Positions 3,736-18,849 of a stretch of 23,252 nt of DNA are shown here, piece by piece (the stretch's first letter is position 1; the number at the start of each line of letters is the position of its first letter). A model generated the notes under the pieces. That model saw only the letters and a program-made list of their open reading frames with translations. It did no database searches and had not been told where the DNA came from. Position numbers and translations under genes: made by a program. This DNA comes from a virus. The stretch is from positions 1 to 23,252 of the IMG/VR virus record IMGVR_UViG_3300028840_000649; one strand, 5' to 3'.

Positions 3736-4009
3736 CAACATCGCCTTTCGCAAGAAACTCCGAGGTATTTTTTCCCTGCTATCGGCTGGCTTTGCCGGTT
3801 TTCCGCGTGGCCTTGGCGCTGGCGGCGGCAGGCAATTTGGTGGTCGTAGCACATCTGGCGGTGGCGGTAGCGGTTATGCAGGTGGCCTGGGTAGTGGCAG
3901 CACACGGCCCGGAAGCTACGGCGGCAGCGGCAGCGGTGGCGGTGGCGGTGGCGGTGGTAGCCCTGCTCCACGTAGGCCGTCAGTACCGAAGGGTGGGGTT
4001 TACCGATGA
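3620..4009 (+). CDS. Small phage protein with basic helix and Gly-rich tail
   Basis: The product has 129 residues from ATG 3620, with GGAGGG at 3604-3609 about ten bases upstream. Residues 5-50 form a charged helix (SKELERIQIEREKQLRVENA) leading to RKKLRGIFSLLSAGFAGFPRGLG. From about 70 the chain is almost all Gly, Ser, Ala and Arg, including eight Gly in a row coded by alternating GGT/GGC at 3935-3958. The helix plus RGxxSLLSAG-type segment recurs, from memory, in small proteins between terminase and portal of similar podoviruses, with no known function. It begins inside the preceding gene (116-base overlap) and ends in an ATGA overlap with the portal gene, implying coupled translation. Confidence 0.8.
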   Translation: MSSKPKQSAQSKELERIQIEREKQLRVENARQTTKAFSDNIAFRKKLRGIFSLLSAGFAGFPRGLGAGGGRQFGGRSTSGGGGSGYAGGLGSGSTRPGSYGGSGSGGGGGGGGSPAPRRPSVPKGGVYR

Positions 4010-5562
4010 AGCTCTCTGGCCCTGAACTGCTGAAGCGTTTCTCCAAGGCCAAGTCAGCGCGATCAAACTGGGAAGATTTGTGGCAGGACATCTACGATCT
4101 GGTGCTTCCTGCGCGTGAAGGTTTTTACGAAACGACCCCCGGCGAGGAAAGAACCGAGGAAATCTTTGACGAGACTGCGCTGGTTTCGCTCGCTGATTTC
4201 GTTTCCCGCATCCATCAAGGCGTCATTCCAGCGCACTTGATGTGGTTCAGGCTGGAGCCGGGTCCAGAAGTGCCGCCGCAGCAGCGGGCAGAACTGCAAG
4301 AGCAGCTTGATCTGGTTGGCAAGTTCATCTGGGAAGCCATCGTGAACTCCAACTTCGTCAATGAGGCTCAGGAAGTTCTGACCGATATTGCGATCGGCTG
4401 GTCAACGCTCATCATCGACGACGGTGTTGATGGCAAGCTGTTGAGCTTCAAGTGCGTCCCGCAATGCCAAACCTTCTGGGACACAGGCGGCCCCAACAAG
4501 GAGGTTGACGGCGTGTTCCGGGTGCGCCACAAGGTTCGCATCAAGGACATCAAGCTCATCTGGCCGGACGCCAAGATCAGCGATGCGCTTCAGGGCAAGG
4601 CCGATGGCGATCCCGAAGCAACGACCAATCTGGTCGAGGCCAGCTACCGCGATTGGAGCCGCAAGGAAACGCCGCGCTACTGCTATCAGGTGGTTGCCGG
4701 TGAAGACAAGTCGCTGGTGATCGATAACTACGAGGAAGGTCTGGGCTCGCGCCCGTATGTGACACCACGCTGGTCGGTTGCGGCCGGTGAGGTCTATGGC
4801 CGCGGCCCGTTGGTGTCGGCGCTGCCGGCGATCCGCACCACGAACCTCGTCACCGAAATGATTCTTGAGAACTCGCAGATGGCGATTTCTGGAATCTGGC
4901 AGGTGGACGACGATGGCACGATCAACGTGGATAACGTCGAGATTGTTCCCGGTGCTGTGTATGCGCGCCCCACTGACAGTCGCGGCCTCGAGCGCACTGA
5001 TAGCCCAAGCAATTTCAATGTGGCCGACATCGTACTGAGCAACCAGCAGGAGAACATTCGCAAGGCCCTGTTCGCTCAGAATCTTGGCCCATTGGATCAG
5101 ACGCCGCGTTCTGCTACGGAGATCCAAGCCCGAATGCAGGACTTGGCCGAACAGACCGCAGGGCCGTCAGGACGATTGAAAGTCGAATGGCTGGACAAAA
5201 TGATCCAGCGCATCGTGTGGCTGTTGACCCGCCGTGGCGTATTGGAAATGCCGCGTGTCGATGGCCGCCAGGTCCGTATCGTTGCCAAATCACCGCTTGC
5301 CCGCGCACAGAAGTTTGAAGAAATCGAGCGCATCCGTGGCTTTGCCGGTGACGTTGTGACGATGTTGGGGCCGCAGGCCAGCCAGCTTTACATCGATCAG
5401 GACGAGCTGGTTGACGAACTGCAAATGAAGTGGGAAGTGCCGCAAAAGATGGTACGCGATCAAGCCAACCGAGAGAGGATGATGCAGGGCATGGCTGAAG
5501 CGGCTCAGGAACAGGGAATTGTACCGGGCGGTCTGCCTGCTCAAGCTGAAATTGGGCAATGA
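4006..5562 (+). CDS. Portal / head-to-tail connector protein (Bbp21 type)
   Basis: The product has 518 residues, close to T7 gp8 (536). It should form the dodecameric ring at one prohead vertex through which TerL threads DNA and to which the tail adaptor binds. The N-terminus (GPELLKRFSKAKSARSNWEDLWQDIYDLVLP) and the following ETTPGEERTEEIFDETALVSLADFVSRIHQGVIPAHLMWFRLEPG are characteristic of the podoviral head-tail connecting family (Pfam Head-tail_con). The middle has RPYVTPRWSVAAGEVYGRGP, a segment conserved in these portals. The C-terminus is helical and Gln/Met-rich, suiting a crown or barrel. ATGA overlaps join it to both neighbours. Confidence 0.94.
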   Translation: MKLSGPELLKRFSKAKSARSNWEDLWQDIYDLVLPAREGFYETTPGEERTEEIFDETALVSLADFVSRIHQGVIPAHLMWFRLEPGPEVPPQQRAELQEQLDLVGKFIWEAIVNSNFVNEAQEVLTDIAIGWSTLIIDDGVDGKLLSFKCVPQCQTFWDTGGPNKEVDGVFRVRHKVRIKDIKLIWPDAKISDALQGKADGDPEATTNLVEASYRDWSRKETPRYCYQVVAGEDKSLVIDNYEEGLGSRPYVTPRWSVAAGEVYGRGPLVSALPAIRTTNLVTEMILENSQMAISGIWQVDDDGTINVDNVEIVPGAVYARPTDSRGLERTDSPSNFNVADIVLSNQQENIRKALFAQNLGPLDQTPRSATEIQARMQDLAEQTAGPSGRLKVEWLDKMIQRIVWLLTRRGVLEMPRVDGRQVRIVAKSPLARAQKFEEIERIRGFAGDVVTMLGPQASQLYIDQDELVDELQMKWEVPQKMVRDQANRERMMQGMAEAAQEQGIVPGGLPAQAEIGQ

Positions 5563-5870
5563 GTGAAGACGGAATCGGGAAATCCAAACGACCACCGAAG
5601 AAAACACCACGAGCAAAAGCAAAGCAGTATCTAGGGCCGGATGGCTTGCGCCGGCCACCGAAGGTTGAGCGCGAGCTCAATGAGTCCTTTGCCATTGTGT
5701 TTTCAAGCGCAGCAGGCAAGAAGACGCTCGACTACCTGAAGTCGATCACGACGAACCGGGTGCTGGAACCGGGTTTGCCGGAAAATACCTACTCGTATCA
5801 GGAAGGAGCCCGTTGGCTGATGGGCGTAATATCAACACGAATCAAAGACGGTGAGGAAAAGAAACCATGA
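5559..5870 (+). CDS. Bbp19-like phage protein
   Basis: The product has 103 residues. The N-terminal 35 residues are Lys/Pro/Arg-rich and likely disordered. The remainder (ESFAIVFSSAAGKKTLDYLKSI, then SYQEGARWLMGVISTRIKDG) fits the Bbp19-like domain of Bordetella phage BPP-1 and many podoviruses: Phe...Phe.s..Gk..LdyL, followed by an EGaR...I helix. The role of that domain is not firmly known; it is consistently found between portal and scaffold, so a head-assembly role is likely. ATGA overlaps link it to the portal upstream and the scaffold downstream. Confidence 0.85.
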   Translation: MSEDGIGKSKRPPKKTPRAKAKQYLGPDGLRRPPKVERELNESFAIVFSSAAGKKTLDYLKSITTNRVLEPGLPENTYSYQEGARWLMGVISTRIKDGEEKKP

Positions 5871-6712
5871 AATATTTACTGTGGCTCTTGTGGCTGGTTG
5901 TTCCACGTGAAACAGAAGGGGGCGAAGGTGACAGCGGTGGAGAGGGCGATGCTGGCGGTGATCCTGCTGGTGATGGTGATGGCGGTGGCGACGGTGACGG
6001 CGCAGCTGGTGAGCGCAAACCGCTTGGGGGGTCTGACCCGGAAGGCAAACCGGACTGGCTGGCTGACAAGTTTTGGAATCCTGACCTCAAAGCGCCGCGA
6101 ACCGAAGTCCTTGCCAAATCCTTCAACGAGCTCGAGGGCAAACTCCGCACCAAGACGGAAGAACTGAAGGAAGAAGTGCTTGCGGATTTGCGCGCACAGG
6201 CCCCGGAGAAATACGAAGTCAATCTGTCCGAGGATCTGAAGCTGCCGGAAAACGTCGAGTTCAATCTGACCGACGAAGACCCGCTGGTGGGCTGGTTCTC
6301 AGGTTTCGCCAAAGACATTGGACTCACTCAGGAGCAGTTCGACAAGGCGATCAACGAGTACGTTGGCATCGAGATCGGCAACATGCCGGACATGGAAGCG
6401 GAGATCGGCAAGCTGGGCGACCACGGCCAGGATCGACTGCTGCGCGTCCACAACTGGCTTGAAACAAGGCTTTCAGAGGATGAGCTGTCTTCGATGAGCT
6501 CGCTACTGAACTCAGCGGAGCAGATCGCCGCATTGGAGAAGCTGATGAAAGCGTCCGGCCCCAACGACTTTGACGGCGATTCTGGCGACGAGCCGTTGAC
6601 GCTGGAAGAACTGCGCGAGATGCAAAACGACACGCGTTACTGGCAGGACAAAGACCCGGCGTTCATCAAGAAAGTCGAGGCTGGCTACCAGAGGCTTTAC
6701 AAAAACCAGTAA
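5867..6712 (+). CDS. Scaffolding (capsid assembly) protein
   Basis: The product has 281 residues (T7 gp9 has 307). It should guide capsid polymerisation inside the prohead and then leave. The N-terminus is a hydrophobic leader (MKYLLWLLWLVVP), followed by a tract of about 30 Gly, Asp and Glu residues (17-47). The scaffold body starts at GKPDWLADKFWNPD (about 60-73) and has a long helix (KSFNELEGKLRTKTEELKEEVLADL, about 84-108). The C-terminal third is acidic and helical and ends RDPAF-like KDPAFIKKVEAGYQRLYKNQ, the usual basic capsid-contact end. ATG 5867 has GAGG ten bases upstream and an ATGA overlap, so the leader is probably translated. A parS-like site lies in its codons 11-16. Confidence 0.9.
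   Translation: MKYLLWLLWLVVPRETEGGEGDSGGEGDAGGDPAGDGDGGGDGDGAAGERKPLGGSDPEGKPDWLADKFWNPDLKAPRTEVLAKSFNELEGKLRTKTEELKEEVLADLRAQAPEKYEVNLSEDLKLPENVEFNLTDEDPLVGWFSGFAKDIGLTQEQFDKAINEYVGIEIGNMPDMEAEIGKLGDHGQDRLLRVHNWLETRLSEDELSSMSSLLNSAEQIAALEKLMKASGPNDFDGDSGDEPLTLEELREMQNDTRYWQDKDPAFIKKVEAGYQRLYKNQ
5899..5914. other. parS-like ParB-binding site
   Basis: The 16 bases TGTTCCACGTGAAACA match the bacterial parS consensus TGTTNCACGTGAAACA at every defined position and are the variant described inside Bacillus subtilis spo0J. parS is the centromere-like site where ParB loads as a clamp. It lies inside the scaffold gene, coding residues within VVPRET; in another frame it reads FHVKQ, the peptide such sites typically encode. 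About 15 fixed positions make a chance hit in 23 kb very unlikely. Binding by host or phage ParB is inferred, not shown. Confidence 0.7.
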
Positions 6713-6724
6713 ATCGACATATAG

Positions 6725-6762
6725 TTCGGGTCGAAGGCCGCTACGCAGCGCCTCGGCCCGGA
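6725..6762 (+). promoter_or_regulatory. Long stem-loop between scaffold and capsid genes
   Basis: The arms 6725-6742 and 6747-6762 pair over 16 base pairs (two G-U type) with single-base bulges at 6735 and 6739 and the loop ACGC. No T run follows, so it is not a canonical intrinsic terminator. In phage late operons such structures serve as RNA processing sites or 3'-end protectors, separating low-level scaffold message from abundant capsid message. The role here is inferred. Confidence 0.6.
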
Positions 6763-6786
6763 CTTCCGGCACAACCGATTCAGGCG

Positions 6787-6832
6787 CCAAGTAGAGATAA
6801 CCTGTAACCCTAGTTGTCATCTTTACTTGGAG
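6787..6832 (+). promoter_or_regulatory. Hairpin masking the capsid ribosome-binding site
   Basis: CCAAGTAGAGAT (6787-6798) pairs with ATCTTTACTTGG (6819-6830) over 12 base pairs, one of them G-U, around a 20-base loop. The 3' arm takes in the first two bases of the GGAG ribosome site (6829-6832), seven bases before capsid ATG 6839. The structure could restrain, time or stabilise capsid translation. No promoter is recognisable in the 126-base gap. Confidence 0.65.
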
Positions 6833-6838
6833 AAAACG

Positions 6839-7708
6839 ATGTTCTTGCTTCGTTTCATCCTGAGCCTCATCTTCCCGATGACTCAGGACAATTCGATCGA
6901 CACCGCCTTCACCAAGCAGTTTGAGTCCGAAGTCCACCTTGCGTATCAGCGCATGGGCTCCAAGTTGCTCAACACTGTTCGGCGCAAGACGAATGTCGTC
7001 GGCAAGTCCACCACTTTCCAGATCATCGGTAAAGGTTACGCAGGCACCAAGACCCGAGGCGGTCAGGTTCCGATCCTCAATCTCGTTCACACGAACGTCG
7101 AATGTACGCTGGCAGATCGCTATGCCGGTGAGTTCATCGACAAGCTGGACGAGCTCAAGATCGAGCATGACGAGCGAGCAGCCGTAACGGCCAGCATCGC
7201 CGGCGCTTTGGGTCGCGCATCCGATCAGGACATCATGGATGTCACCGATACGTTCACGCAGGAAACTTCAGCAACGGGCGTCGTTACGCAGCCCAAGATT
7301 GAGGAAGCCTACGAGTATTTCGGTAACAACGATGTGCCGGATGATGGTGGGCGTTTCCTTGCTGTTGCTCCGCAAGGGTGGACTGACCTTATGGGTCTTA
7401 CGACCTTCGCGTCTCTGGACTATGTACCGGAGTCGGATCTGCCTTTCCCGAAGGTAGGGTTCAGCGCGAAGAACTGGTTCTCGTTTAACATCTTCTCGTT
7501 CAGTGGTATCACGCTGACTGGCGGCACTGTCCGTCAGAACGTCGCGTACCACAAGAGCGCGGTCGGCCACGCAAGCGGTCAGGATGTGGCGATGGACATC
7601 ACCTGGCAGGGCAAAGAGCAGGCGCATCTCGCGGTCGGCTCGATGTCCATGAATGCCGTAATCATCGATGACGTCGGTGGCTACCGCATTCGCTCGACGG
7701 AGACTTAA
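6839..7708 (+). CDS. Major capsid protein
   Basis: The product has 289 residues and should form the icosahedral shell. Position after portal and scaffold and the core sequence identify it: SIDTAFTKQFESEVHLAYQR, SKLLNTVRRKTNVVG, GKGYAGTKTRGGQVPIL, CTLADRYAGEFIDKLDELKIEHDERAAV and FTFSGITL-type strands later are typical of the podoviral P22/HK97-fold capsid family. ATG 6839 was chosen because GGAG at 6829-6832 precedes it at good spacing. This adds a hydrophobic leader, MFLLRFILSLIFP, before Met14 (ATG 6878), where I expect homologues to begin; 6878 has no ribosome site. A TTG at 6827 is in frame but lies in the hairpin and is not needed. Confidence 0.93.
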   Translation: MFLLRFILSLIFPMTQDNSIDTAFTKQFESEVHLAYQRMGSKLLNTVRRKTNVVGKSTTFQIIGKGYAGTKTRGGQVPILNLVHTNVECTLADRYAGEFIDKLDELKIEHDERAAVTASIAGALGRASDQDIMDVTDTFTQETSATGVVTQPKIEEAYEYFGNNDVPDDGGRFLAVAPQGWTDLMGLTTFASLDYVPESDLPFPKVGFSAKNWFSFNIFSFSGITLTGGTVRQNVAYHKSAVGHASGQDVAMDITWQGKEQAHLAVGSMSMNAVIIDDVGGYRIRSTET

Positions 7709-7709
7709 G

Positions 7710-8000
7710 ATGAAAGCAATCTTCGATAAGCTCATCCTCGGTCTGCTTCGATTCTTGCCCTGTGCGTTTGATGCCACTGGCATGAACCGCCTTCACTCGG
7801 GCACCTGCACGCTCTGGATCTACAAAACGACTGACGCAATCGCAACGGTCGCCGGCTCCGGGTATTTCAATAGCTTTACGGATCAGCTTAGGAACGGCGA
7901 TGTCATCATCGTTTCTGACACGAACGTACCGACTATTGATATGTTGACGGTCACTTCCGCGGATAACGCGGCGACCGTGACGACCCTGAACGGCACGTAA
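7710..8000 (+). CDS. Small capsid-adjacent structural protein (possible decoration protein)
   Basis: The product has 96 residues from ATG 7710, with GGAG at 7699-7702 and a single base after the capsid stop. It opens with a hydrophobic leader, MKAIFDKLILGLLRFLPC. The body (LWIYKTTDAIATVAGSGYFNSFTDQLRNGDVIIVSD... ) has the pattern YkTTDa.atV...GYFN...d.LrnGDvI, recurring in small beta-rich proteins directly after podoviral capsid genes. Those are usually uncharacterised or assumed to be head decoration or fibre proteins. The final strand-rich part ends VTTLNGT. Co-translation with the capsid suggests a high copy number. The precise role is inferred. Confidence 0.8.
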   Translation: MKAIFDKLILGLLRFLPCAFDATGMNRLHSGTCTLWIYKTTDAIATVAGSGYFNSFTDQLRNGDVIIVSDTNVPTIDMLTVTSADNAATVTTLNGT

Positions 8001-8014
8001 TCCAAACCGAGGAC

Positions 8015-8022
8015 AGGAGTGT
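8015..8022 (+). promoter_or_regulatory. Shine-Dalgarno upstream of the hairpin
   Basis: AGGAG at 8015-8019 lies 43 bases before the tail-adaptor ATG at 8063, with the hairpin 8023-8053 between them. No ribosome site is seen between hairpin and ATG. With the hairpin folded, the effective gap falls to about 12 bases, so this may be the working ribosome site, as described for T4 gene 38. Confidence 0.4.
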
Positions 8023-8058
8023 GGGCCGGGGTTAGCTAGTCTAGCCTCGGCCCCTTTT
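8023..8058 (+). terminator. Intrinsic terminator-like hairpin between capsid block and tail block
   Basis: Arms 8023-8035 and 8041-8053 form 13 base pairs, two of them G-U type, around the loop CTAGT. CTTTT follows at 8054-8058. The G+C-rich stem plus T run fits a Rho-independent terminator, though four Ts suggest leakiness. Its place after the capsid genes and before the tail adaptor matches T7's T-phi, which lowers expression of downstream tail genes. Confidence 0.75.
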
Positions 8059-8062
8059 GCAT

Positions 8063-8674
8063 ATGGCCGAAGTAGATCGAATCGACAATGCGAACAAGGC
8101 CTGCCTTGCGGCTGGTGTGAATACCATCATCAGCTTTACTCAAGGTACGCCCGAATCCATTTTCTGCAACGACTGGTACGAGCTCATCGTTGATTCCGAG
8201 CTGTCACTTTACAAGTGGCGCTTTGCGACGAAGACCGTTGACCTCACAACGTCGTTGCTTGTCGGTGAACCGGATACGCGCTACAACACGCGCTACCAGT
8301 TGCCGACTGATGTTCTGTCCGTTGATACGGTACTGGTGGGGGAAGACCCTATCGATTACGACCGCTATCAGGACGAGATTCATACCAACGACACCAGCAA
8401 TGACACGGTGGTCATCAAGTATCGATTCCGCGCTGATGAAGCCTTGTGGAGTCCGTATTTCAAACTGCTGGTGATCTACCGGCTGGCGACCATGCTGTCA
8501 TTCTCATTGGCCCGCCGCGATGATGTTGCGGCATCAATGAAAAGCCTTGCCGATGAACACTGGCGTAGGGCCAAGACCGAAGACGCACAGGCGCAGACCA
8601 ATCAAAAGGTCAATCTCAGGCGACTTGCTAACGCAAGGGGCGGCTCTCTCGACAAGTTCTGGCGTAGACGCTAA
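8063..8674 (+). CDS. Tail tubular protein A / head-tail adaptor (T7 gp11-like)
   Basis: The product has 203 residues from ATG 8063 (T7 gp11 has 196). It should form the ring between portal and nozzle. The sequence has the family layout: an early DRIDNANKACLAAGVN helix, YELIVDSELSLYKWRFATKTVDL, then YQLPTDVLSVDTVLVGEDPIDYDRYQDEI, and the C-terminal helix pair LVIYRLATMLSFSLARRDDVAASMKSLADEHWRRAKTEDAQ. It ends in a TAATG overlap with the nozzle gene. No ribosome site lies between the upstream hairpin and this ATG. A TTG at 8057 in frame lies in the terminator T run and is unlikely. Confidence 0.9.
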   Translation: MAEVDRIDNANKACLAAGVNTIISFTQGTPESIFCNDWYELIVDSELSLYKWRFATKTVDLTTSLLVGEPDTRYNTRYQLPTDVLSVDTVLVGEDPIDYDRYQDEIHTNDTSNDTVVIKYRFRADEALWSPYFKLLVIYRLATMLSFSLARRDDVAASMKSLADEHWRRAKTEDAQAQTNQKVNLRRLANARGGSLDKFWRRR

Positions 8675-10965
8675 TGCCTCGCTTCCGCAACTATCAGACA
8701 AACTTTTCCGGGGGTTTGCTATCTGAGGGTATGTTGGGCCGGCTCGACCTGGCTCAGTACGAAAACGGTTGCAAGATTCTCGACAACTGGTGGCCGAAAG
8801 TCACTGGTGGAATGCGGCGCCGACCCGGAACCACTTACCTCAATTCTCAGGAAGGGGCGGTTCGCTTGGAGCCGTTTATCTTCTCTGAAGATCAGGTGTA
8901 CCTGTTCCTGTTCTGGAATGATCCACTTAGCTCAACCGATGGCATCAACATTTACGATGCGGATACGGGTGCGCTGATTCAGTTCCTCGATCTCAGTGGT
9001 GTTGCGTGGAGTGACGACATCATCAAGGAACTGTCGATCACGCAAACTGCCGATGTCATGTTCTGCGCGCACAACAGTTTCCCGCCAATAATGATTCGTC
9101 GGACTGGTGCCACGACGTTTGTGCAGGAATCATTTCAGTTTGAAAGCAAGTATCCGGTGGACGCTGGTGCGTATCCGCTGGCTATGCCATTTTTCAAATA
9201 CGCTGACACGGCTATTACAATCCAGACCAACGGCTATCAGGAAGGCGCCTCAGTCACAGTTACGGCCAGCTCGCCGGTCTTTGAGGATCGGCACTTGAAT
9301 CGAGCGATCCGCTATCGCGGCAAGCAGCTCTATGTAACAGCCGTTCCCGGTCCACTTCAGCCGCAATCAACCTGTACGGCTGTCATTCTTGAGGATTTGG
9401 ATCGCGGTGCCGTACTTACTTTTGCTGGTACGCCAACAGATATGCCAATGGATTACCTGATCGATGAGATCGTGGTAGGCCGCACTTCTGGCATCAAGGC
9501 CCAGGTCATCGACAAAAGCCCAACCTCAATCACGATTGCGATGATTGCTGGTGTGTTCCCGGCTGGCGCAACTGAACAGGTCGAGGGCCTGACCAGCGGA
9601 AACATTTGCACGATCACAGCCAACTCGAACGTGAATCCGGTGCCGACGACTGATTGGGATGAGGAAGCCTTCACTCCGACACATGGGTATCCATCCGTAA
9701 TCGAGTTCCACTCGCAGCGCCTTTGGCTCGCAGGTAGTTCCTCACTTCCAGCCCATATCTTCGGGTCAAGGGTTGCTGCGTTTTTTAACTTTGATGTGGG
9801 CGATGCTGAAGCTGCTGATTCCATTCAGGCTGTCATTTCCGACAAGCAGGTGAATGAAATCCGTGATGTTGTCAGTGGCCGTCACTTGCAGATTTTCACT
9901 GACGCTGCTGAGTTCTACGCACCACAGTCTGAAGATTTGCCGCTAGAACCTACCACGTTTGATTTGAGAAAGCAGACTCGGTATGGCGTCAACGCCACTA
10001 TTGAGCCGCAGATTTTCGATGAGTCGACGCTATTCGTACAAGCTCAAGGTAATGCAATTCGTGAGTTTATCTGGGTTGATACCCTGCGCGGTTACTCGTC
10101 AGATGCCATCTCACTGATCTCCGAAGAACATCTCAATGATATTCAGGAAGTCGAAGTGCTGTATGGCGGCTATGACCGTCCCGAGCAGATCGCTTTCTTT
10201 GTCAACGGTGACGGCACGATTACGTGGTATCACGCAGCTCGCGCCGAGCAGATTCGCACATGGGGCAAATGGACAACGCAAGGCAATTACAAATCCTTGG
10301 CCGTTATTCAGGACAAACTGTATTGCTTGGTTGAGCGCGAGATTGATGGCGATACTGTTTCCATGATCGAACGCTTTGAGCTTCATCTGACGGTGGACTC
10401 TGCAATCACCAAGGTTTCCGCAGGCCTTGTACCCGTGACCGGATTCACGGCTCATGCCTTGCACCTGAAAAATACCGAAGTCAACGTGGTGGTGGCTGTT
10501 AATGCCAGCAACTCCGGTTCGCTTGGTGGCCCGCAGGTTGCGGATCAGGAACTCGACGCGGATTACTACCTTGGCAATATCACCATTGGCGAAACAGGTG
10601 ACAGTGAATTGTCGGGTGTCATTGAGGTTGATCCGGTTGGCAATATGACGGTCGGCCTGCCATATACACAGTTGCTTGAAACCATGCCGATCGAAATCAA
10701 GGACAATCAAGGCGTCACTTCTGGCTTGCCGAAGCGCATCGTATCGGCCGATCTGTACCTTGCTTCGACACTGGCCGCGCAGTTGCAAGGTAATCGCGTG
10801 TTGACGTTCCTTGGCGAAATTGATCTTCAGCAGAGGCCGCTTGCTATTACCGGCCCGCGCAAGTTTTACCTGTATGGCTATTACGAAAGACCGACACTGG
10901 TAATTCAGAATGAAATTCCGCTACCGTGTGAAGCGTTGGCACTTGGCGCAGAGGTGGAATACTGA
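8674..10965 (+). CDS. Tail tubular protein B / nozzle (T7 gp12-like)
   Basis: The product has 763 residues (T7 gp12 has 794). It should form the hexameric nozzle at the tail tip and carry the spikes. The N-terminus is diagnostic: FRNYQTNFSGGLLSEGMLGRLDLAQYENGCKILDNWWPKVTGGMRRRPGTTYL matches the QtNFs.Gelsp...gR.Dl..Y..G...l.N......GG...RpGt pattern of these proteins. The rest is beta-rich, as expected for propeller and nozzle domains, including VIEFHSQRLWLAG and HIFGSRVAAFFNF, also typical of this family. The start overlaps the adaptor stop (TAATG) and the end overlaps the next start (TGATG). Confidence 0.92.
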   Translation: MPRFRNYQTNFSGGLLSEGMLGRLDLAQYENGCKILDNWWPKVTGGMRRRPGTTYLNSQEGAVRLEPFIFSEDQVYLFLFWNDPLSSTDGINIYDADTGALIQFLDLSGVAWSDDIIKELSITQTADVMFCAHNSFPPIMIRRTGATTFVQESFQFESKYPVDAGAYPLAMPFFKYADTAITIQTNGYQEGASVTVTASSPVFEDRHLNRAIRYRGKQLYVTAVPGPLQPQSTCTAVILEDLDRGAVLTFAGTPTDMPMDYLIDEIVVGRTSGIKAQVIDKSPTSITIAMIAGVFPAGATEQVEGLTSGNICTITANSNVNPVPTTDWDEEAFTPTHGYPSVIEFHSQRLWLAGSSSLPAHIFGSRVAAFFNFDVGDAEAADSIQAVISDKQVNEIRDVVSGRHLQIFTDAAEFYAPQSEDLPLEPTTFDLRKQTRYGVNATIEPQIFDESTLFVQAQGNAIREFIWVDTLRGYSSDAISLISEEHLNDIQEVEVLYGGYDRPEQIAFFVNGDGTITWYHAARAEQIRTWGKWTTQGNYKSLAVIQDKLYCLVEREIDGDTVSMIERFELHLTVDSAITKVSAGLVPVTGFTAHALHLKNTEVNVVVAVNASNSGSLGGPQVADQELDADYYLGNITIGETGDSELSGVIEVDPVGNMTVGLPYTQLLETMPIEIKDNQGVTSGLPKRIVSADLYLASTLAAQLQGNRVLTFLGEIDLQQRPLAITGPRKFYLYGYYERPTLVIQNEIPLPCEALALGAEVEY

Positions 10966-11555
10966 TGTTTGATCGATTTCTTGTTTGGGTGCTGAGTCGC
11001 TTCATCCCGCTTGGCGGCAGCGAATACCTGATCTATTACGCCTATGCGGCGGCCGCGGTGGGTACTGCCGTGACGGTGCAGAATCAGGCGTATGCCAACC
11101 GGATGCGCCAGCAGCAGCTCGAGGAAGAACTGCGCTCGCGGGAGCTCGCCGCGCTGGACGAAGAAAACCAGCGGCTTCAGGCATTACGAGAAGCGAATCA
11201 GGACATACTGGTACGGGCCGGTGGCATTGACGCATGGGCCTCGCCGTCACTAATTGCTGCCCGTAATTTCAACTTCAAGATGGGCATGGAAGACATCGAA
11301 AACATTCGCCTCAATTTGCAACAGGCTCGCTCGTCCGTGGCTGCAAGGATCTCGGTGCTAAAGAAAAACACGCGCGCTACTCAAATTGCCGGGCTCTTTG
11401 AGATTGCCAGTATTGGGCTGAACGCAGCTTCGGCTTACGGCCAGCTTGGTAAAACTGGAACCAAGGCAATTCCAAAAGACGGATCAGGCGGCATCAATCA
11501 AAAACTTGGCGTTGGCATTCTTGACACGCCGGGCGGTACGGGAGCACTTAGCTAA
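10965..11555 (+). CDS. Small internal virion (ejection) protein, T7 gp14-like
   Basis: The product has 196 residues, the same length as T7 gp14. By position it is the first of three ejection proteins, which leave the virion at infection and build the channel through the outer membrane and periplasm. It starts with the hydrophobic leader MFDRFLVWVLSRFIP, followed by an Ala-rich membrane-like stretch (YLIYYAYAAAAVGTAV, about 21-36). A long Gln/Glu/Arg helix (NRMRQQQLEEELRSRELAALDEENQRLQAL) comes next. The tail is Gly-rich. ATG 10965 is backed by GAGGTGG at 10951-10957 and a TGATG overlap. Assignment rests on size, gene order and helix layout rather than detailed motifs. Confidence 0.78.
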   Translation: MFDRFLVWVLSRFIPLGGSEYLIYYAYAAAAVGTAVTVQNQAYANRMRQQQLEEELRSRELAALDEENQRLQALREANQDILVRAGGIDAWASPSLIAARNFNFKMGMEDIENIRLNLQQARSSVAARISVLKKNTRATQIAGLFEIASIGLNAASAYGQLGKTGTKAIPKDGSGGINQKLGVGILDTPGGTGALS

Positions 11556-14158
11556 TGGCTCGACTGACACGACAGATCGGCATAACCGCACCGCAGGTTC
11601 GCTTGCCGCAGTCGCAAAGCGTTGGCCCGGCTATCGTCAAGACGGCCGCTACCCTGGCCGACATCGAATACCAGAAGATGTCTGACAAGCGCACGCAGGA
11701 AGCGCAGGTCGCCGCGGCCAAGCTGGTGTTCGAGCGTGACGACGAAGGCAATCTGGTTGCTCCGTCGCTGCCCTTTAGTGACAACGGCCTGCTTGCGCCA
11801 AGCATCTTTGATCGCAAGTACACGCAGATGGTGGGTCAGCGGTATTTGCAGCAGACGCAGATCGACACGGCCAAGACGCTCAATGAGATTGCTATCGAGC
11901 ATCGCTTTGACCCGACTGCTTTTCAGGAGGTTGCTGAAGGGTACGTCAACAAGGTCACGGAGCTGGCCCCGGACTTTCTCAAGCCTGACGTCAATAACGC
12001 GGCGCAGGTCAAGATGGTGGAGCATTACAACCACATCATCAGGCAGAAGGCCGAACGGGATCACAGCGAGGCTCGTGGCGTCCATCTGCAATTCATGGAT
12101 GACCTGAGCGATGAGCTGATTGGCTACATTGAATCCGGCGCCGATGATGAAATCGTGGGTGCAAAGATGCTGGAGATCCGCGCTGCCATTGAGCAGGGCG
12201 ACGAGCTGAACTACTGGCTCGATGATGAAAAGATGATGATGCACGATACGCTCAACAAGCGCATGAGCCTTGCTGAAATCATCACGCAGATTCAGCGCGT
12301 TCCCTTGGGTGACGATGTTGCTCAGGCTGAAATGATTCAGTCATTGAGTGAGTTTGCTAACGGCGATGGCAAGATTGTCGTGGTCAACGAGCTGGGCGAG
12401 CGTGAAAGAGTGGATGTCACCGACATCTATCCAAATCCTGAAGACCGGGCGGCGATTGCCGAGGTTGCGGCAAACACGCTAAACGCAAAAATGGCGAACT
12501 TCGAGAACCTTCAGGATGCGCGGTTGCAGCGTAATTGGGAGAAGTTCTTTAACTGGTACGATCAGCACGCCGTTACCCAGGCCGCAGCCGGTCAGCCATT
12601 GGATATGGGCCGACTGTCTGAAGAATTTTCCAAAGCACACAACGATGTTATGACCAAGGGTTATGACTCGACGCTGCGTGAAGCGATCCGCAACATCATG
12701 TTGGGTCAGTACACCAGTGGCGGTGATGGCTCGATGTCGAAGTGGAAAGAGCGCTTCTTGGAAGGTTGGGTCAACTGGCATGAGCGTTATCAGATCGAAC
12801 GCGAGAACTTCCTGCAAGGCCGCAACATTGAAGACCTGACGCCTGATGAAATGTCAGACCTTCACGAAATGGTGGTTGACAGGATTGGTTCTATCCCCGG
12901 TGGTCATGTGCAAAGCGAAGCGGCAACCGATGAGGTCAACGAGTTCTATACGGCGCTCACTGGCCGCACATTCGACCAAAGTCTATACGAGGATCTGATT
13001 GCGAACCCAGACGATCCCCGGTGGGCCGAGCTGAAAAACTGGATGCCATTGATGGGCGAGATTGGTTTGTGGGATCGCGGCATGGTCAACGCCATGATTG
13101 GCAAGCTGCGTGACCCGGAAACGATGTCGCCTGAAACGCTCAAAAATGTACTGGCGTTGAACCGGATGTTCTGGGAAGAACCGACGTTTCGTTACAACAT
13201 GATCGATAGCAATGCCCTCGGTGGCCGCATTGGTCGTGCGCTGGATTACGTTCACCGCACCAAAATGAACCCGACGCCGGCAGAGCTGAAGAAAATCCTC
13301 GATCAGTTTGCCGACTCAAACTGGTCGCCGCGCAAGGACTGGCTGGCTCGTTCACCTGAAGAACGTGAAACCTTCCGAAACATGGCGAATGAACGGCTTG
13401 AAAAAGTCTTTCAGGCACAGTGGACAAGTGCATGGTGGCCGAGTGGCATACAGGCGCCGGGCCTGTTTACCGAGCTGGCTGGTATTCCAGAAGAAGTTCG
13501 CAGCCTTGTCATTGATTCGGTAATTGCCGAGGCTGGTTTCATTGATACCAACGATCCTGAGACATTCGATACGTTTATTTACCGGGCCACGCATCGTGCG
13601 CTGGCCCAAAGCGGCTGGACGCCGAGCAAGATTGGTTATAGCCCGCAGCGGTATGGCGCGAATTACGATGGCCTGTTTGGCGGCTTTGATCGTCCTGATT
13701 ACGCGCTGTCCAAGTACGCGCCTGAATACTACGCTCGCGACAAGAACGGCAACGTTGATCGCACAATGATTCGTTACGTTGAAGAAGATGCCCAGGTCGT
13801 GCTGAACGCTTACGAGAAGCAAACTGGCAACAAGTTTGTGATTGGTAAGAATGCTGCGTTGATTTACAACGGTGAAGCCAGCCGTCGGCAGTCAGCCAAG
13901 ATGAATGACGGCCAGTGGCATCCGATGTACGAGATTGCACTCATAAAAGATGATGGCAATTACGAGACATTGCAGGAGTACCAGCAGCTTGAAGGCGTGC
14001 CGGTGTACTTCAACATGATGGGCAGCATGGTTCGGTACAGGAAAGACGAGCGCAAGATGATGGAGCTGCGCAACCAGCGCACCGCTGCATTCCGTACCGA
14101 TTACCAGAACGGCCAACTGAAAGGCGGCCAACGGTTGACGCATGGATCGATTCAATGA
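11555..14158 (+). CDS. Large internal virion (ejection) protein, T7 gp15-like
   Basis: The product has 867 residues (T7 gp15 has 747). It should be the second ejection protein, forming the periplasmic part of the DNA conduit. It starts MARLTRQIGITAPQVRLPQSQ, and the body is almost entirely helical with no membrane span (for example DTAKTLNEIAIEHRFDPTAFQEVAEGYVNKV). The later part holds an AIxxAGFxxTNDPETFDTFIYRATHRALAQSGW stretch and GYSPQRYGANYDGLFGGF, and the end is basic. No lysozyme or transglycosylase motif is visible. TAATG and ATGA overlaps join it to the gp14-like and gp16-like genes. Identification is by size, order and composition. Confidence 0.82.
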   Translation: MARLTRQIGITAPQVRLPQSQSVGPAIVKTAATLADIEYQKMSDKRTQEAQVAAAKLVFERDDEGNLVAPSLPFSDNGLLAPSIFDRKYTQMVGQRYLQQTQIDTAKTLNEIAIEHRFDPTAFQEVAEGYVNKVTELAPDFLKPDVNNAAQVKMVEHYNHIIRQKAERDHSEARGVHLQFMDDLSDELIGYIESGADDEIVGAKMLEIRAAIEQGDELNYWLDDEKMMMHDTLNKRMSLAEIITQIQRVPLGDDVAQAEMIQSLSEFANGDGKIVVVNELGERERVDVTDIYPNPEDRAAIAEVAANTLNAKMANFENLQDARLQRNWEKFFNWYDQHAVTQAAAGQPLDMGRLSEEFSKAHNDVMTKGYDSTLREAIRNIMLGQYTSGGDGSMSKWKERFLEGWVNWHERYQIERENFLQGRNIEDLTPDEMSDLHEMVVDRIGSIPGGHVQSEAATDEVNEFYTALTGRTFDQSLYEDLIANPDDPRWAELKNWMPLMGEIGLWDRGMVNAMIGKLRDPETMSPETLKNVLALNRMFWEEPTFRYNMIDSNALGGRIGRALDYVHRTKMNPTPAELKKILDQFADSNWSPRKDWLARSPEERETFRNMANERLEKVFQAQWTSAWWPSGIQAPGLFTELAGIPEEVRSLVIDSVIAEAGFIDTNDPETFDTFIYRATHRALAQSGWTPSKIGYSPQRYGANYDGLFGGFDRPDYALSKYAPEYYARDKNGNVDRTMIRYVEEDAQVVLNAYEKQTGNKFVIGKNAALIYNGEASRRQSAKMNDGQWHPMYEIALIKDDGNYETLQEYQQLEGVPVYFNMMGSMVRYRKDERKMMELRNQRTAAFRTDYQNGQLKGGQRLTHGSIQ

Positions 14159-17100
14159 GTGGTGATCGCCTCGCACAAGCCATTGGATTACCGAACCCGC
14201 AGTTTGTAAAACTTGGGGCTACCGGCAATATCAATGATCGCTTGCGCGATGCGTATATGCTCGATACCTCGGCTGGCCAGCTTACGATGTTTGCGGCCAC
14301 CGCCAAGGCTTTTGGTGTGCCTATCAATTCTTTGCAGCGAAGGGTTGAGCCTGGCTACTCGCCATTTGACGACGATCTGCGTGGCTTTGAGATGCATCTG
14401 GACGAGTTTGAAAATTCAACCTCGCCAGAAGAAACAAGGCTCATCAAGCAAATGATCGAGAACAACCTCGATCTGCGACGCAACCTCGAGGACTACGGCG
14501 GCACTCGCTTTCTCACTGGTCTGCTTGACCCGATCAATTTGATTCCGGTCCCTTTTGCTTTGGGCAAGGGATTCGCTGAAGGCGCAAAGGTAGCCCTGAA
14601 ACGCGGTACGCCGATCATCGCCGGCACCGAGCTCACGCGCCATGCCATTGACCCGACGAGTACGTGGGGCGAAACCACGATGAATACGTTGGGCGGCACA
14701 CTATTCATGGGCCTGATTGGCGGCGCGGTTGGCAAGATTCCCAAGAACACGATCACGGTCAGCGAGGCCCTGAACAAACTCACGCCACCTGCCGGCACCA
14801 CGATGATGTTCGGCGGTATGCCGTGGGGTATTGGTTCGGCCAAGGGTGCATGGGGCCGGGTCAAGAACGCGATCAAGTCAACGGCCAGCTCCGGCGAGCC
14901 GTCATGGAAAAAAGTCGATCCTGATGATGTTCACATGGAAGTGGACGAGTTTGGCGGCAGCGGCGTTGATCGCATTGTGCGAATCATTCACAACGATTCT
15001 GGTGAAGAAATCCTGACCGGCGTTGTGCGTGATGGCCGGATTGAAGTAGCTGTTGGTGTTCCAGAGGCCTTGCGTCGCCGTGGGCTTGCTTCTTATGCAA
15101 TTCGAGAAGCAGCCATGTACGCCGAAAAGAACGGCCTTACGGTAGCCTCACATGGAACTGTGTCACCGGACGCGATTCAGTTGTGGAAGTTCTTTGAATC
15201 GCAAGGCGTCAAAGTCAAAGAGAATCCGAACTTCAAGCTGGACTCCGAAGGCAACCGCGTATCGCTGGACGATCAACCGCTATTCGAGGCGGTGCAGCAG
15301 ATCGACCCGGAAGCAAAGCAGATCCCGAAAGAGGTTCGTGACGATCTCAATAGCCTTGAGCGTGATTACAAGCAATCCGAGATGGAACTCAAGGTTCTGG
15401 ATGAGGCGGTCAAGCTCCAGAAAGAGAAGGTCAAGAACGCCCCGGTTGCCGGTGGCGCCAAAACCAAGGCCAAGAACGCCCTCGAGGAGTTGCTGAAAAC
15501 CCAGAACGAAACAGCATGGAAGCTGAAGCGCCAGAAGTCAGCCTTTGATGACCTAAACGTCAAGGCCGCGCAAATGCTGGACGAGGCCACCATCAAGGAT
15601 TGGGACTTGCTGCCGACCGGCTACAACAAGCTGTTGGGCAAGCTGGATCAGTTTCCGTGGTGGACGTTGATGAAGACGCCGTTCCGCGAGCTGGCCCCGG
15701 ACCTTGCCGTGAAGTACCAGATGTTCGCTTTGAAGATGGCTGCAACACCGGGCCTGAACAATGCAGGCAACCGGCTTGGCTCATCTACTGGCCCAAGCGT
15801 TGAAGCGTTGACGATCGAGTACACCGGCAAATGGTTGGCAGCGGCCCGTAAAGCACAGACGATCTACCGCAAGTATGCAGGCTATGGCGAAACCAGCAGC
15901 CAGGTGAAGCACTTCATGGTGGATCAGGCGCAGCGCGTTCGTTCCACGGTGAATCGCGCCGCTGGCGGCGAGCCCATTAAGACAACCTCGGATGGCAAGC
16001 TGACCATCGAGGAGTTCAACAAACAGATCAGCATTGCCATTGCTGATAACGGCAAGCACACGATTCCTGAAGTGGCCGAAGCGGCCGCGGATTACGTTCG
16101 TGTTCTGAAAGAGATTGGCGATGAAGGCAAGCGGCTCGAAGTCTTTGCCACGCAGCGCAACATTCTCAGGCGTATCGCTAAGAAAGAACAGGCCCTCGCA
16201 GAGTTCGATGAAAAGTGGGGCCTCAAGTACAACGTCACTGGCGATCAGGATGTCCAGCTAAATGAAGCTGGACAGGCCTTGCTTGATGAGTTCAATCGGC
16301 TCAATTCTATAATTCTCGGTGACGCTTACACCAATACCAAGCCGACGTTTGTACCAGATCATGTGACTAAGCTGAAGGATGGGGTCAACGATGTTTACAT
16401 CGATGATGCCATTACGCCGCGTGACGGTTTGCGTAGCGCAACCGGCGTTGACACACCATCGCGTGTTGAGGTTCTGAAGAATCCGACGCGAACCAGTCTT
16501 GCTCGTTGGGCTGGCAGGGATGTTGAATCAGTACGTTTTGCAGTAGACACGAATGGTGACTTGTACGTCTGGGATGCCAACCTGATGCTTCACGAAACCT
16601 TCCGTCAGGCCACGGACGTTGGTGCCTACAGCAATACCTTCTTTGACATCACGATTGAGCCAAAGCGGCTATTCGATGCCTTTGAGGAATCGCTCAGTTC
16701 TCGTTTGTTTGATGGGCAGGAAACCAGCGGTGACATTTTGTACCCGAAGGTATTCGCCAAAGAGATTGAATCAACCGCTTACTTTAAGGAAGTCAATCAG
16801 AAACTCGGTGCGGCTGCTGACGCAGCACCAGACAAAGATCCTCTGCCGCCGCCGTTGCAGGCAACTCGTGACGCTATCGAGCTGGAGAAAATGCAGCTTG
16901 AGGAAATGAACGAGAAGTACAAGCTGCAAGAGAATGAAGATTACGTTCATCGGATGTGGGATGCCGAACAGGTAATCGCCCAGGCCGACGAACTCAAGAC
17001 CATGATCCGTGAGTCGTTCCTGCTTGATCCTCTGGAAGCCAAGACTGGCAAGAAGATCGATATTGATGTCCTGAATGCTCGCGTTGAGGAAGCCTATGCC

Positions 17101-18849
17101 TCGATTTTGCACGATGCAGAAACGGGTGGTGATTCAGCTTATGCCCCGAACTCAACTGAGCGCCGGAACTGGTTGGAAGCTCGCCTGAAATACCTCGAGG
17201 ACAACCCGGATGGTCTGCCGTCGAAGCAGGTGTTTACGCAGCAGAAGATCATCGAGCGCAAGCTGGAAAGGATTGAAGCAGGGCATGGTATTACCGGCGC
17301 CAGCGGCCCGTTGATTGCTCGTCGGCTGGATCTCGACGACAAGAAGCTGATCGAAATGGGCCTGACCGAAGGCAACGTCGATACGTGGATGAATCACTAC
17401 GTTATGCGAACGGCCCCGATGATCGAAACTGCTCGCGTCTTCGGTGATCCGAAAGCGCAGAAGGCGATTGACGATCTGTTCTACGAGGTTTACGAACGAG
17501 CTCAAGCGGAAACCAATCCGGCCAAGCAGGCCAAAATGCTCGAGGAAGCCGAGCGTGCCAAGCAGGCCATGATTGATCTGCGTGACATCGTTCATGGCGT
17601 ATATCAGATCCCCGAACACACTGACGCCATTACTCCTCGCCTGTTACGGATACTTCGCAACTTCAATATCCTCGGTGCGATGGGTCGCTCAGTGCTGATG
17701 GCAATGGGTGATATGGGCAATGTGATCGTGTCGCAGGGCTTTGTTCGTTCTCTGGGCCATGCGGTTGAGTCGTTTGCTGGCGGTCTGACTGACGGCAACA
17801 TCAAGATGATAAAGGATGAAGTCGACCTGGCTGGTTCCGTTTCCGAGGTCATTCTCGGTATGCGTTACCACCAAATGACTGACTTCGGTGCGGCTGTGGG
17901 CTACTCGTCCAAGGCCCCGAAGTGGTTCAACAAGCTCGAGCGCGGTATGTCCAATGCTTCGCAGCGCTTCTTCCTTTACAACCTGCTTGGTCCGTGGACG
18001 GATATGGCGCGGCGATTCTCTGGTGGAATGCTTCAATCGCGTTTGATCGAGAACTCGCGGCTATGGAAGGCCGGCCAACTTGGCGACGATCAGATCGAGA
18101 TAATGACTCGGCTTGGCATCAACAAAGAGCAGGCAATCCAGTTCGTCAACGAGTGGGAGGCCAGCGGTGGCCTCAAGCACAAGTCGATGTTCATTGCCAA
18201 TACGTCACAGTGGGTCAGTGAGCAGGCTGTTCGCACGTTCCGCGCTGCCATGAACACCGAGATCAATCGAATGGTTCCGACGCCCGGAGCTGTGGACAAG
18301 CCCAAGGCCCTTTTGAAATCCGAATGGTGGAAAGTGATCGGTCAATACCGGGGCTTTTCGATTGCTGCAACTCATCGAATCATGGGTGCTGGCATTCACA
18401 CCAAGGGCAAAACGAAGTGGGCCGGCATGGCCAGCATGGTCGGGATCGCCATGACCGTCGATGCGCTCAAGCGGCCTGACTACATCCAGATGCCCATCGA
18501 GGAGCAGCTGCTTCGCGCTGTTGAGCTCTCTGGCGTAACGGGAATCATTCTCGATTTGAACGATACGATTGAGCGCGCCAGTGCGGGAACCATTGGTCTC
18601 CGGCCAGCTCTCGGCATGGATATTCGTGAGCGCAATCCGAACTGGGCAAACCGCATGGGTACTATTGGTGCGGTTCCTAACCAGTGGTTGACCCTGATGT
18701 ACGGTCTGACCTCTGATGAGGCTACGACAAATGACCTTGCTCGCGGTATTCGGTATATGATCCCCTATAACAACTTGTTGTGGTGGAACGAAGCGTTCAA
18801 CCGTGGACAGAGGGCCGCTGTTGACACTATTGAGGACTTTCAAGAATGA
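14155..18849 (+). CDS. Giant internal virion (ejection) protein, T7 gp16-like, with GNAT-like insert
   Basis: The product has 1564 residues (T7 gp16 has 1318). It should be the third ejection protein, spanning the inner membrane to start DNA entry. Residues 110-200 hold Gly/Pro-rich hydrophobic stretches. Residues 253-362 resemble a GNAT acetyltransferase: VGVPEALRRRGLASYAIREA, with RRRGLA at 307-312 as the acyl-CoA loop, and DAIQLWKFFESQGV as the final motif. A coiled coil follows at about 392-480. The C-terminal 400 residues (IGQYRGFSIAATHRIMGAGI, then ELSGVTGIILDL) match the conserved end of such ejection proteins. The usual N-terminal transglycosylase is not apparent. ATGA overlaps flank it. 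Confidence 0.88.
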   Translation: MSGDRLAQAIGLPNPQFVKLGATGNINDRLRDAYMLDTSAGQLTMFAATAKAFGVPINSLQRRVEPGYSPFDDDLRGFEMHLDEFENSTSPEETRLIKQMIENNLDLRRNLEDYGGTRFLTGLLDPINLIPVPFALGKGFAEGAKVALKRGTPIIAGTELTRHAIDPTSTWGETTMNTLGGTLFMGLIGGAVGKIPKNTITVSEALNKLTPPAGTTMMFGGMPWGIGSAKGAWGRVKNAIKSTASSGEPSWKKVDPDDVHMEVDEFGGSGVDRIVRIIHNDSGEEILTGVVRDGRIEVAVGVPEALRRRGLASYAIREAAMYAEKNGLTVASHGTVSPDAIQLWKFFESQGVKVKENPNFKLDSEGNRVSLDDQPLFEAVQQIDPEAKQIPKEVRDDLNSLERDYKQSEMELKVLDEAVKLQKEKVKNAPVAGGAKTKAKNALEELLKTQNETAWKLKRQKSAFDDLNVKAAQMLDEATIKDWDLLPTGYNKLLGKLDQFPWWTLMKTPFRELAPDLAVKYQMFALKMAATPGLNNAGNRLGSSTGPSVEALTIEYTGKWLAAARKAQTIYRKYAGYGETSSQVKHFMVDQAQRVRSTVNRAAGGEPIKTTSDGKLTIEEFNKQISIAIADNGKHTIPEVAEAAADYVRVLKEIGDEGKRLEVFATQRNILRRIAKKEQALAEFDEKWGLKYNVTGDQDVQLNEAGQALLDEFNRLNSIILGDAYTNTKPTFVPDHVTKLKDGVNDVYIDDAITPRDGLRSATGVDTPSRVEVLKNPTRTSLARWAGRDVESVRFAVDTNGDLYVWDANLMLHETFRQATDVGAYSNTFFDITIEPKRLFDAFEESLSSRLFDGQETSGDILYPKVFAKEIESTAYFKEVNQKLGAAADAAPDKDPLPPPLQATRDAIELEKMQLEEMNEKYKLQENEDYVHRMWDAEQVIAQADELKTMIRESFLLDPLEAKTGKKIDIDVLNARVEEAYASILHDAETGGDSAYAPNSTERRNWLEARLKYLEDNPDGLPSKQVFTQQKIIERKLERIEAGHGITGASGPLIARRLDLDDKKLIEMGLTEGNVDTWMNHYVMRTAPMIETARVFGDPKAQKAIDDLFYEVYERAQAETNPAKQAKMLEEAERAKQAMIDLRDIVHGVYQIPEHTDAITPRLLRILRNFNILGAMGRSVLMAMGDMGNVIVSQGFVRSLGHAVESFAGGLTDGNIKMIKDEVDLAGSVSEVILGMRYHQMTDFGAAVGYSSKAPKWFNKLERGMSNASQRFFLYNLLGPWTDMARRFSGGMLQSRLIENSRLWKAGQLGDDQIEIMTRLGINKEQAIQFVNEWEASGGLKHKSMFIANTSQWVSEQAVRTFRAAMNTEINRMVPTPGAVDKPKALLKSEWWKVIGQYRGFSIAATHRIMGAGIHTKGKTKWAGMASMVGIAMTVDALKRPDYIQMPIEEQLLRAVELSGVTGIILDLNDTIERASAGTIGLRPALGMDIRERNPNWANRMGTIGAVPNQWLTLMYGLTSDEATTNDLARGIRYMIPYNNLLWWNEAFNRGQRAAVDTIEDFQE
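14910..15240 (+). other. GNAT-like domain inside the ejection protein
   Basis: This segment codes residues 253-362 of the giant ejection protein. It has strand-like DRIVRIIHND and RIEVAVGVP, then RRRGLASYAIREAAMYAEKNG (the Q/R-x-x-G-x-G/A loop and helix that hold acetyl-CoA), a VASHGTVSP strand, and DAIQLWKFFESQGVKV, which mirrors the closing helix-strand of GNAT enzymes. The early strands are short, so it may be a minimal or degenerate copy. Substrate is unknown. Confidence 0.65.

Follow-up and report, generated by a model that had tools for sequence, protein, structure and literature searches.

Genome context of the gp16-like ejection protein

The DNA studied here, a stretch of 23,252 nucleotides that we call the window, represents part of the genome of an uncultivated podovirus (IMG/VR record IMGVR_UViG_3300028840_000649). 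A second record of 37,845 bp is 99.95% identical to it across the entire window and is probably a complete genome, because it carries a 123-bp terminal direct repeat. The structural block runs terminase, portal, scaffold, capsid, gp11, gp12, gp14, gp15, gp16 and tail fibre, which is a T7-like order (gp8-9-10-11-12-14-15-16-17), and the open reading frame for the gp16-like protein is intact (Table 1). This protein resembles T7 gp16 (internal virion protein D) in its homologous C-terminal region, in its homology to the region of T7 transmembrane segment TMH I and in its place after gp14 and gp15. It differs from T7 gp16 in that Pfam detects no N-terminal transglycosylase and in that it carries a GNAT domain and further inserts. 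The neighbouring gp15-like protein (11555-14158) has no detectable lytic transglycosylase either; at 31-44% identity among members of the window's clade, it is much more divergent than gp16 or gp12.

The protein also has a coiled-coil-like segment and a second mobile domain, the latter with the pattern NPTR..LARWAGR....R.AVD..GNLYVWDA..LH. This second domain sits at a different position in the gp16 of the relative L107, is present in L089/L168 and is absent from L103 and L165; it gave no Pfam match and no tblastn match in phages. Elsewhere in these genomes, an ORF of 1897 aa (3989-9682) lies downstream of the tail fibre in the clade member L154 (G003), and L024 (G001) has, outside the window, an inverted repeat of ~650 bp per arm (9877-11370, arms 73% identical) overlapping two divergently oriented ORFs of 253 and 200 aa.

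Table 1. Features of the gp16-like protein, its gene neighbourhood and its Drulisvirus counterparts (res, residues of the gp16-like protein).
Feature	Position in window	Strand	Evidence or remark
gp12 (8674-10965) abutting gp14-like gene (10965-11555), no gp13 gene between	8674..11555	+	
gp16-like internal virion (ejection) protein, 1564 aa	14155..18849	+	phrog_342 E 1.8e-51, residues 910-1552; T7-like gene order
N-terminal domain (res 1-204), homologous to T7 gp16 TMH I region	14155..14766	+	HMM, PDB profile, hydropathy
GNAT domain (res ~249-382)	14899..15300	+	Pfam, PDB profile, AlphaFold, Foldseek
Acyl-CoA loop motif R307-R-R-G-L-A312 = [R/Q]xxGx[G/A]	15073..15090	+	kept in 6/6 clade members and Drulisvirus inserts
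DAIQLWKFFESQGV (res 339-352), helix at GNAT 'NxxAxxLYxxxGF' place	15169..15210	+	
Coiled-coil-like segment (res 383-470)	15301..15564	+	clade-specific; fast-evolving, as the GNAT is
Second mobile domain (res ~735-875)	16357..16779	+	
Conserved gp16 C-terminal domain (res 1044-1553)	17284..18813	+	
Drulisvirus gp16 with N-acyltransferase domain			SFN6B YP_009798620, KpV48 YP_009787604, myPSH1235 YP_009799489, ZH5 UOL48265

Sequence and structure evidence for a GNAT domain

An earlier note on this DNA, made from its letters, had proposed that residues 253-362 of the gp16-like protein form a GNAT-like domain. Taken by itself, the window sequence is suggestive of this. It matches Pfam Acetyltransf_CG at 0.0021 and Acetyltransf_1 at 0.0028, both under the curated cut-offs (18.3 bits for Acetyltransf_1 against a gathering cut-off of 20.7), phrog_7861 'acetyltransferase' at 7.6e-4 and the PDB acetyltransferase 2g3a at 0.016. 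Homologous inserts in related phages, described below, sharpen the picture: all six match Acetyltransf_1 (best 2.7e-6), two of them above the gathering cut-off (L165 with 28.1 bits, L107 with 21.8), and a profile of the six-member family searched against the PDB returns a list headed by acetyltransferases, with 2g3a first at 3.7e-4.

Structure prediction followed by a fold search, the check put forward in the earlier note, points the same way. AlphaFold predicts the elements in the order beta-beta-beta-beta-alpha-beta-alpha-beta, which is the GNAT order, with a pLDDT of 75.6 from one sequence and 73.7 from six. Foldseek comparisons of both models with the PDB return GNATs almost exclusively, with probabilities near 1 for the best matches; RimI (2cnm) is first with probability 1.00 and a TM-score of ~0.41-0.44, and the TM-scores are modest throughout, mostly 0.35-0.5. 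In a viral structure library, three large proteins (A0A516MAL9, A0A516MAA7 and A0A6J5MSB5) are among the best fold matches. As the AlphaFold models are of middling confidence, it is the agreement among kinds of evidence that carries our assignment of residues ~249-382 to a GNAT domain, somewhat larger than the extent first proposed. That the assignment is an artefact of chance or composition is suggested by the scores of the window sequence alone, which fall under the Pfam cut-offs, but we consider it negligibly probable, since six inserts are homologous to one another, the evidence is of three independent kinds and the homologues in Drulisvirus score over the cut-off.

The motifs of the domain are partly those of a classical GNAT. 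The acyl-CoA loop that had been read in RRRGLASYAIREA (residues 307-319, 15073-15111) is indeed intact. At the 'NxxAxxLYxxxGF' place, N is replaced by S or T, and Y by W in the window protein. The catalytic Glu of RimI-type enzymes is absent from all six inserts, where its position holds S, T, A or P, and the RimI-type Tyr is kept in only two (L107 and L165), the other four having W or F. These two residues are not universal among GNATs, and some GNATs function without them. Acetyltransferase activity is putative, because the RimI-type Glu and Tyr are not conserved.

Distribution and evolution of the insert

Relatives were gathered by an alignment-based scan and with a degenerate DNA pattern built on a conserved stretch, SPEET..IK. 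This yielded five further phages whose gp16s are 57-64% identical to that of the window, all with the same insert. (Nine diverse gp16s, once aligned, differed too much to support a pattern scan; a query with the ZP6 gp16 gave no relatives, and the L033 gp16 recovered only itself.) The full gp16 set comprises 102 sequences in 25 clusters at 80% identity, and the insert is present in six of these. In a tree of the C-domain, the six insert-bearing clusters form one side of a single branch with support 100/100, so that one change accounts for the distribution, and we conclude from this phylogeny that the insert has a single origin among the window's relatives. Every cluster of the window's clade with a complete gp16 carries it (6/6). 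The earlier note had also asked which relatives lack the insert: it is absent from all gp16 clusters outside the clade, among them those of Pelagibacter phage Hodr and its relatives from the environment. At the same junction, the gp16 of L004 (Hodr and kin) has ~200 residues of other, unrecognised sequence (residues ~216-415), so more than one kind of insert may be accepted at the site after TMH I.

Mean identity within the clade is 38% for the GNAT, 59% for the N-domain and 76% for the C-domain, so the insert evolves faster than the rest, as would be expected for an accessory module whose target keeps changing. In those comparisons with unsaturated synonymous divergence, for which the ratio can be estimated, dN/dS of the GNAT is 0.20-0.25, which indicates purifying selection and hence an insert kept by selection; the estimates are rough because synonymous sites are near saturation. 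Two scans of genome contigs found no close relative in bacterial genomes.

An optional homologous cassette in Drulisvirus

We considered whether the insert is unique to this virus, and rejected this: besides the five clade relatives, four cultivated phages carry an equivalent. A tblastn search with the GNAT of the relative L109 finds matches inside gp16 of the Drulisviruses (Autographiviridae: Slopekvirinae) ZH5, SFN6B, myPSH1235 and KpV48, at 2e-8 to 5e-6 and 87% coverage, with the following matches at E 0.1 or worse. The insert thus comes and goes in the injection protein of well-known phages of Klebsiella and E. coli. The window's own GNAT gave no tblastn matches in phages, and the link runs only through L109. 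On the full gp16, the Drulisvirus cassette scores 30.4 bits against Acetyltransf_1 (cut-off 20.7), and that of KpV48 scores 34.4. The architecture is not wholly unrecorded, since the SFN6B GenBank record already notes a cd04301 N-acyltransferase on gp16. In both groups a homologous GNAT (~30% identity) follows an N-terminal membrane region of gp16 and there is no gp13 gene, whereas the gp16 bodies show only distant kinship (C-domain HMM 4e-8 to 1e-6 when four sequences were searched).

The two groups differ in how regularly the domain occurs. While it is found in all six clusters of the window's clade that have a complete gp16, the Drulisvirus sequences identify it as optional within that genus. 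The insert region of SFN6B is matched by 249 phage records, nearly all through its flank alone; the GNAT is present in seven of these, which represent the same four phages, and ~97% of Drulisvirus records lack it. Any benefit of the cassette is therefore conditional. The gp16s of KP34, AV102 and Indie are 1232 aa long, compared to 1420 aa with the cassette, a clean absence of ~188 residues. On the two sides of the cassette, KpV48 is 96.5% and 97.0% identical to KP34, and SFN6B is 94.7% and 95.5% identical to AV102, yet SFN6B and KpV48, which both bear the cassette, are only 80% and 86% alike in these flanks. Since the pairs with and without the cassette are closer than the two that share it, its state changed at least twice within the genus. 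It is this presence and absence at an empty site in gp16 that leads us, from comparison of sequences, to regard the GNAT as an accessory cassette in an ejection protein. In Klebsiella phage fHe-Kpn01, which has been compared with Drulisvirus, a small stand-alone toxic protein, Gp38, is N-acetyltransferase-like by HHpred (PMC7291057).

Relation to T7 gp13

T7 gp13, phrog_308, phrog_4177 and the Cobavirus GNAT pc40 are likewise GNAT-like proteins encoded beside ejection genes, raising the question of whether the insert is a gp13-type protein that moved into gp16 and replaced gp13. The missing stand-alone gene suggested this at first: gp12 abuts gp14 in 7/7 clade members examined, with no phrog_308/4177 gene found, and Hodr, ZP6, ctHz2215 and TL-2011b have such a gene and no insert. 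A gp13-type model is also among the fold matches, and the Cobavirus paper equates a GNAT with T7 gp13 (PMC6775973). These stand-alone proteins, however, have no detectable sequence kinship with the insert (no match of the insert to phrog_308/4177; hhalign probability 0.3% against gp13 proteins), and the CoA-loop motif is absent from the members examined. No replacement is needed in any case, because KP34, AV102 and Indie live with neither gp13 nor cassette. We thus reject relocation, which we hold to be very improbable.

Position in the ejection machine

If the cassette travels with gp16, its location in the protein bears on where it would end up. The N-domain has a scored hydrophobic segment at residues 119-137 and another at about residues 177-196, seen in the alignment with relatives. 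By HMM it aligns to T7 gp16 297-375, and its matches in the PDB, at modest E-values, are Gp29 (9vvp, 281-382, E 8e-4) and T7 gp16 (7eyb/7k5c, 298-379, E 0.24); TMH I of T7 gp16 (243-410) spans the match. In the window protein, ~50 residues separate the second hydrophobic segment from the start of the GNAT; in Drulisvirus, too, the cassette comes after the hydrophobic segment. That the two N-domains are colinear has modest support (hhalign E 3.4e-4, probability 38%). The composite model published for T7 gp16 places the N-terminus in the periplasm and the region beyond residue 411 in the cytoplasm (PMC8954989). Coming just after the TMH I-homologous segment, the cassette would therefore face the cytoplasm, where acetyl-CoA is, if the T7 topology holds.

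A proposed role for the cassette

From homology, the packaging and ejection of this gp16 can be inferred, and delivery into the host with the phage DNA is well founded. We propose that an accessory GNAT cassette was inserted into gp16 directly after its first membrane-associated region. Being a part of gp16, it would be packaged into the capsid, be ejected alongside the core proteins as infection starts and, with T7 topology, come to lie at the inner membrane on its cytoplasmic face. Once there, with acetyl-CoA or a different acyl-CoA bound, it would acylate a protein of the host or of the ejectosome ahead of phage gene expression. We give this account a probability of about 0.5. Weighing against it are the absent RimI-type Glu and the Tyr kept in two of six inserts, the low TM-scores (~0.4-0.5), a T7 topology that is itself a composite model, the lack of acetyl-CoA in the periplasm should the domain stop there, and the ~97% of Drulisvirus records that do without it. 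A more specific version, in which an active acyltransferase enters the cytoplasm on an ejectosome protein, modifies a target in host defence or takeover ahead of the reading of any phage gene and is gained and lost like anti-host cassettes, shared by unrelated podophage lineages at one tolerated gp16 site, is put forward tentatively, at somewhat less than even odds.

Two other readings compete with early acylation. The GNAT fold could be a non-catalytic spacer, structural or CoA-sensing, of the core stack or ejectosome, as the unconserved catalytic residues would allow; a GNAT-like fold is already in use by phages in gp13, and the gp13 sequences examined lack [R/Q]xxGx[G/A]. We find a spacer unlikely, because the CoA loop keeps its motif in all six clade members and the Drulisvirus inserts despite low overall identity, and because phages that are 97% identical would not be expected to differ in a structural component of an essential machine. 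Alternatively, the domain could act late, while virions are assembled, on proteins of the virion or the host in the cytosol of the cell that produces them, with its ejection incidental: gp16 lies within the late structural block, and its synthesis presumably takes place in the cytosol, which is rich in acetyl-CoA. But nothing links the domain to assembly and a site adjoining TMH I would suit a role after ejection, making this decidedly less probable than a spacer.

Discussion

The gp16 of the window combines a gp16 body, a GNAT and a second mobile domain in a protein whose delivery is inferred. The earlier note likened it to the 'polyvalent' proteins of phages and conjugative elements, among whose listed catalytic domains are GNATs (Iyer et al. 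2017, PMC5512222). The likeness holds in kind, in that foreign domains have accumulated in an injected protein, and extends to a GNAT (RimI-like clade) within a large injected multidomain protein. Of the two GNAT families described in that paper, one has an ART neighbour; Pfam found no ART domain in 24 gp16s and no other named polyvalent domain here, and the carrier is a T7-type core protein. A term search of PMC5512222 turned up neither ejection proteins nor internal virion proteins nor gp16, and a GNAT-gp16 fusion was not found in open-access papers. Already known are the occurrence of GNATs in injected polyvalent proteins (PMC5512222) and the N-acyltransferase note in one GenBank record. 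New are the clade of environmental phages, the connection between it and the cassette of Drulisvirus, the common site behind TMH I and the pairs with an empty site.

As a channel and motor protein, gp16 is obliged to refold through a narrow portal. That an enzyme-type domain is tolerated at one gp16 site in two distant lineages suggests that this site can carry cargo into the cell; it further points to the part of gp16 that is exposed to the cytoplasm. Nature offers two pairs without and with the cassette, KP34/KpV48 and AV102/SFN6B, which are 94.7-97% identical in the rest of gp16. Because such near-identical phages exist and can be cultured, the role of the cassette, and with it that of injected enzymes at the first moment of infection, is directly testable.
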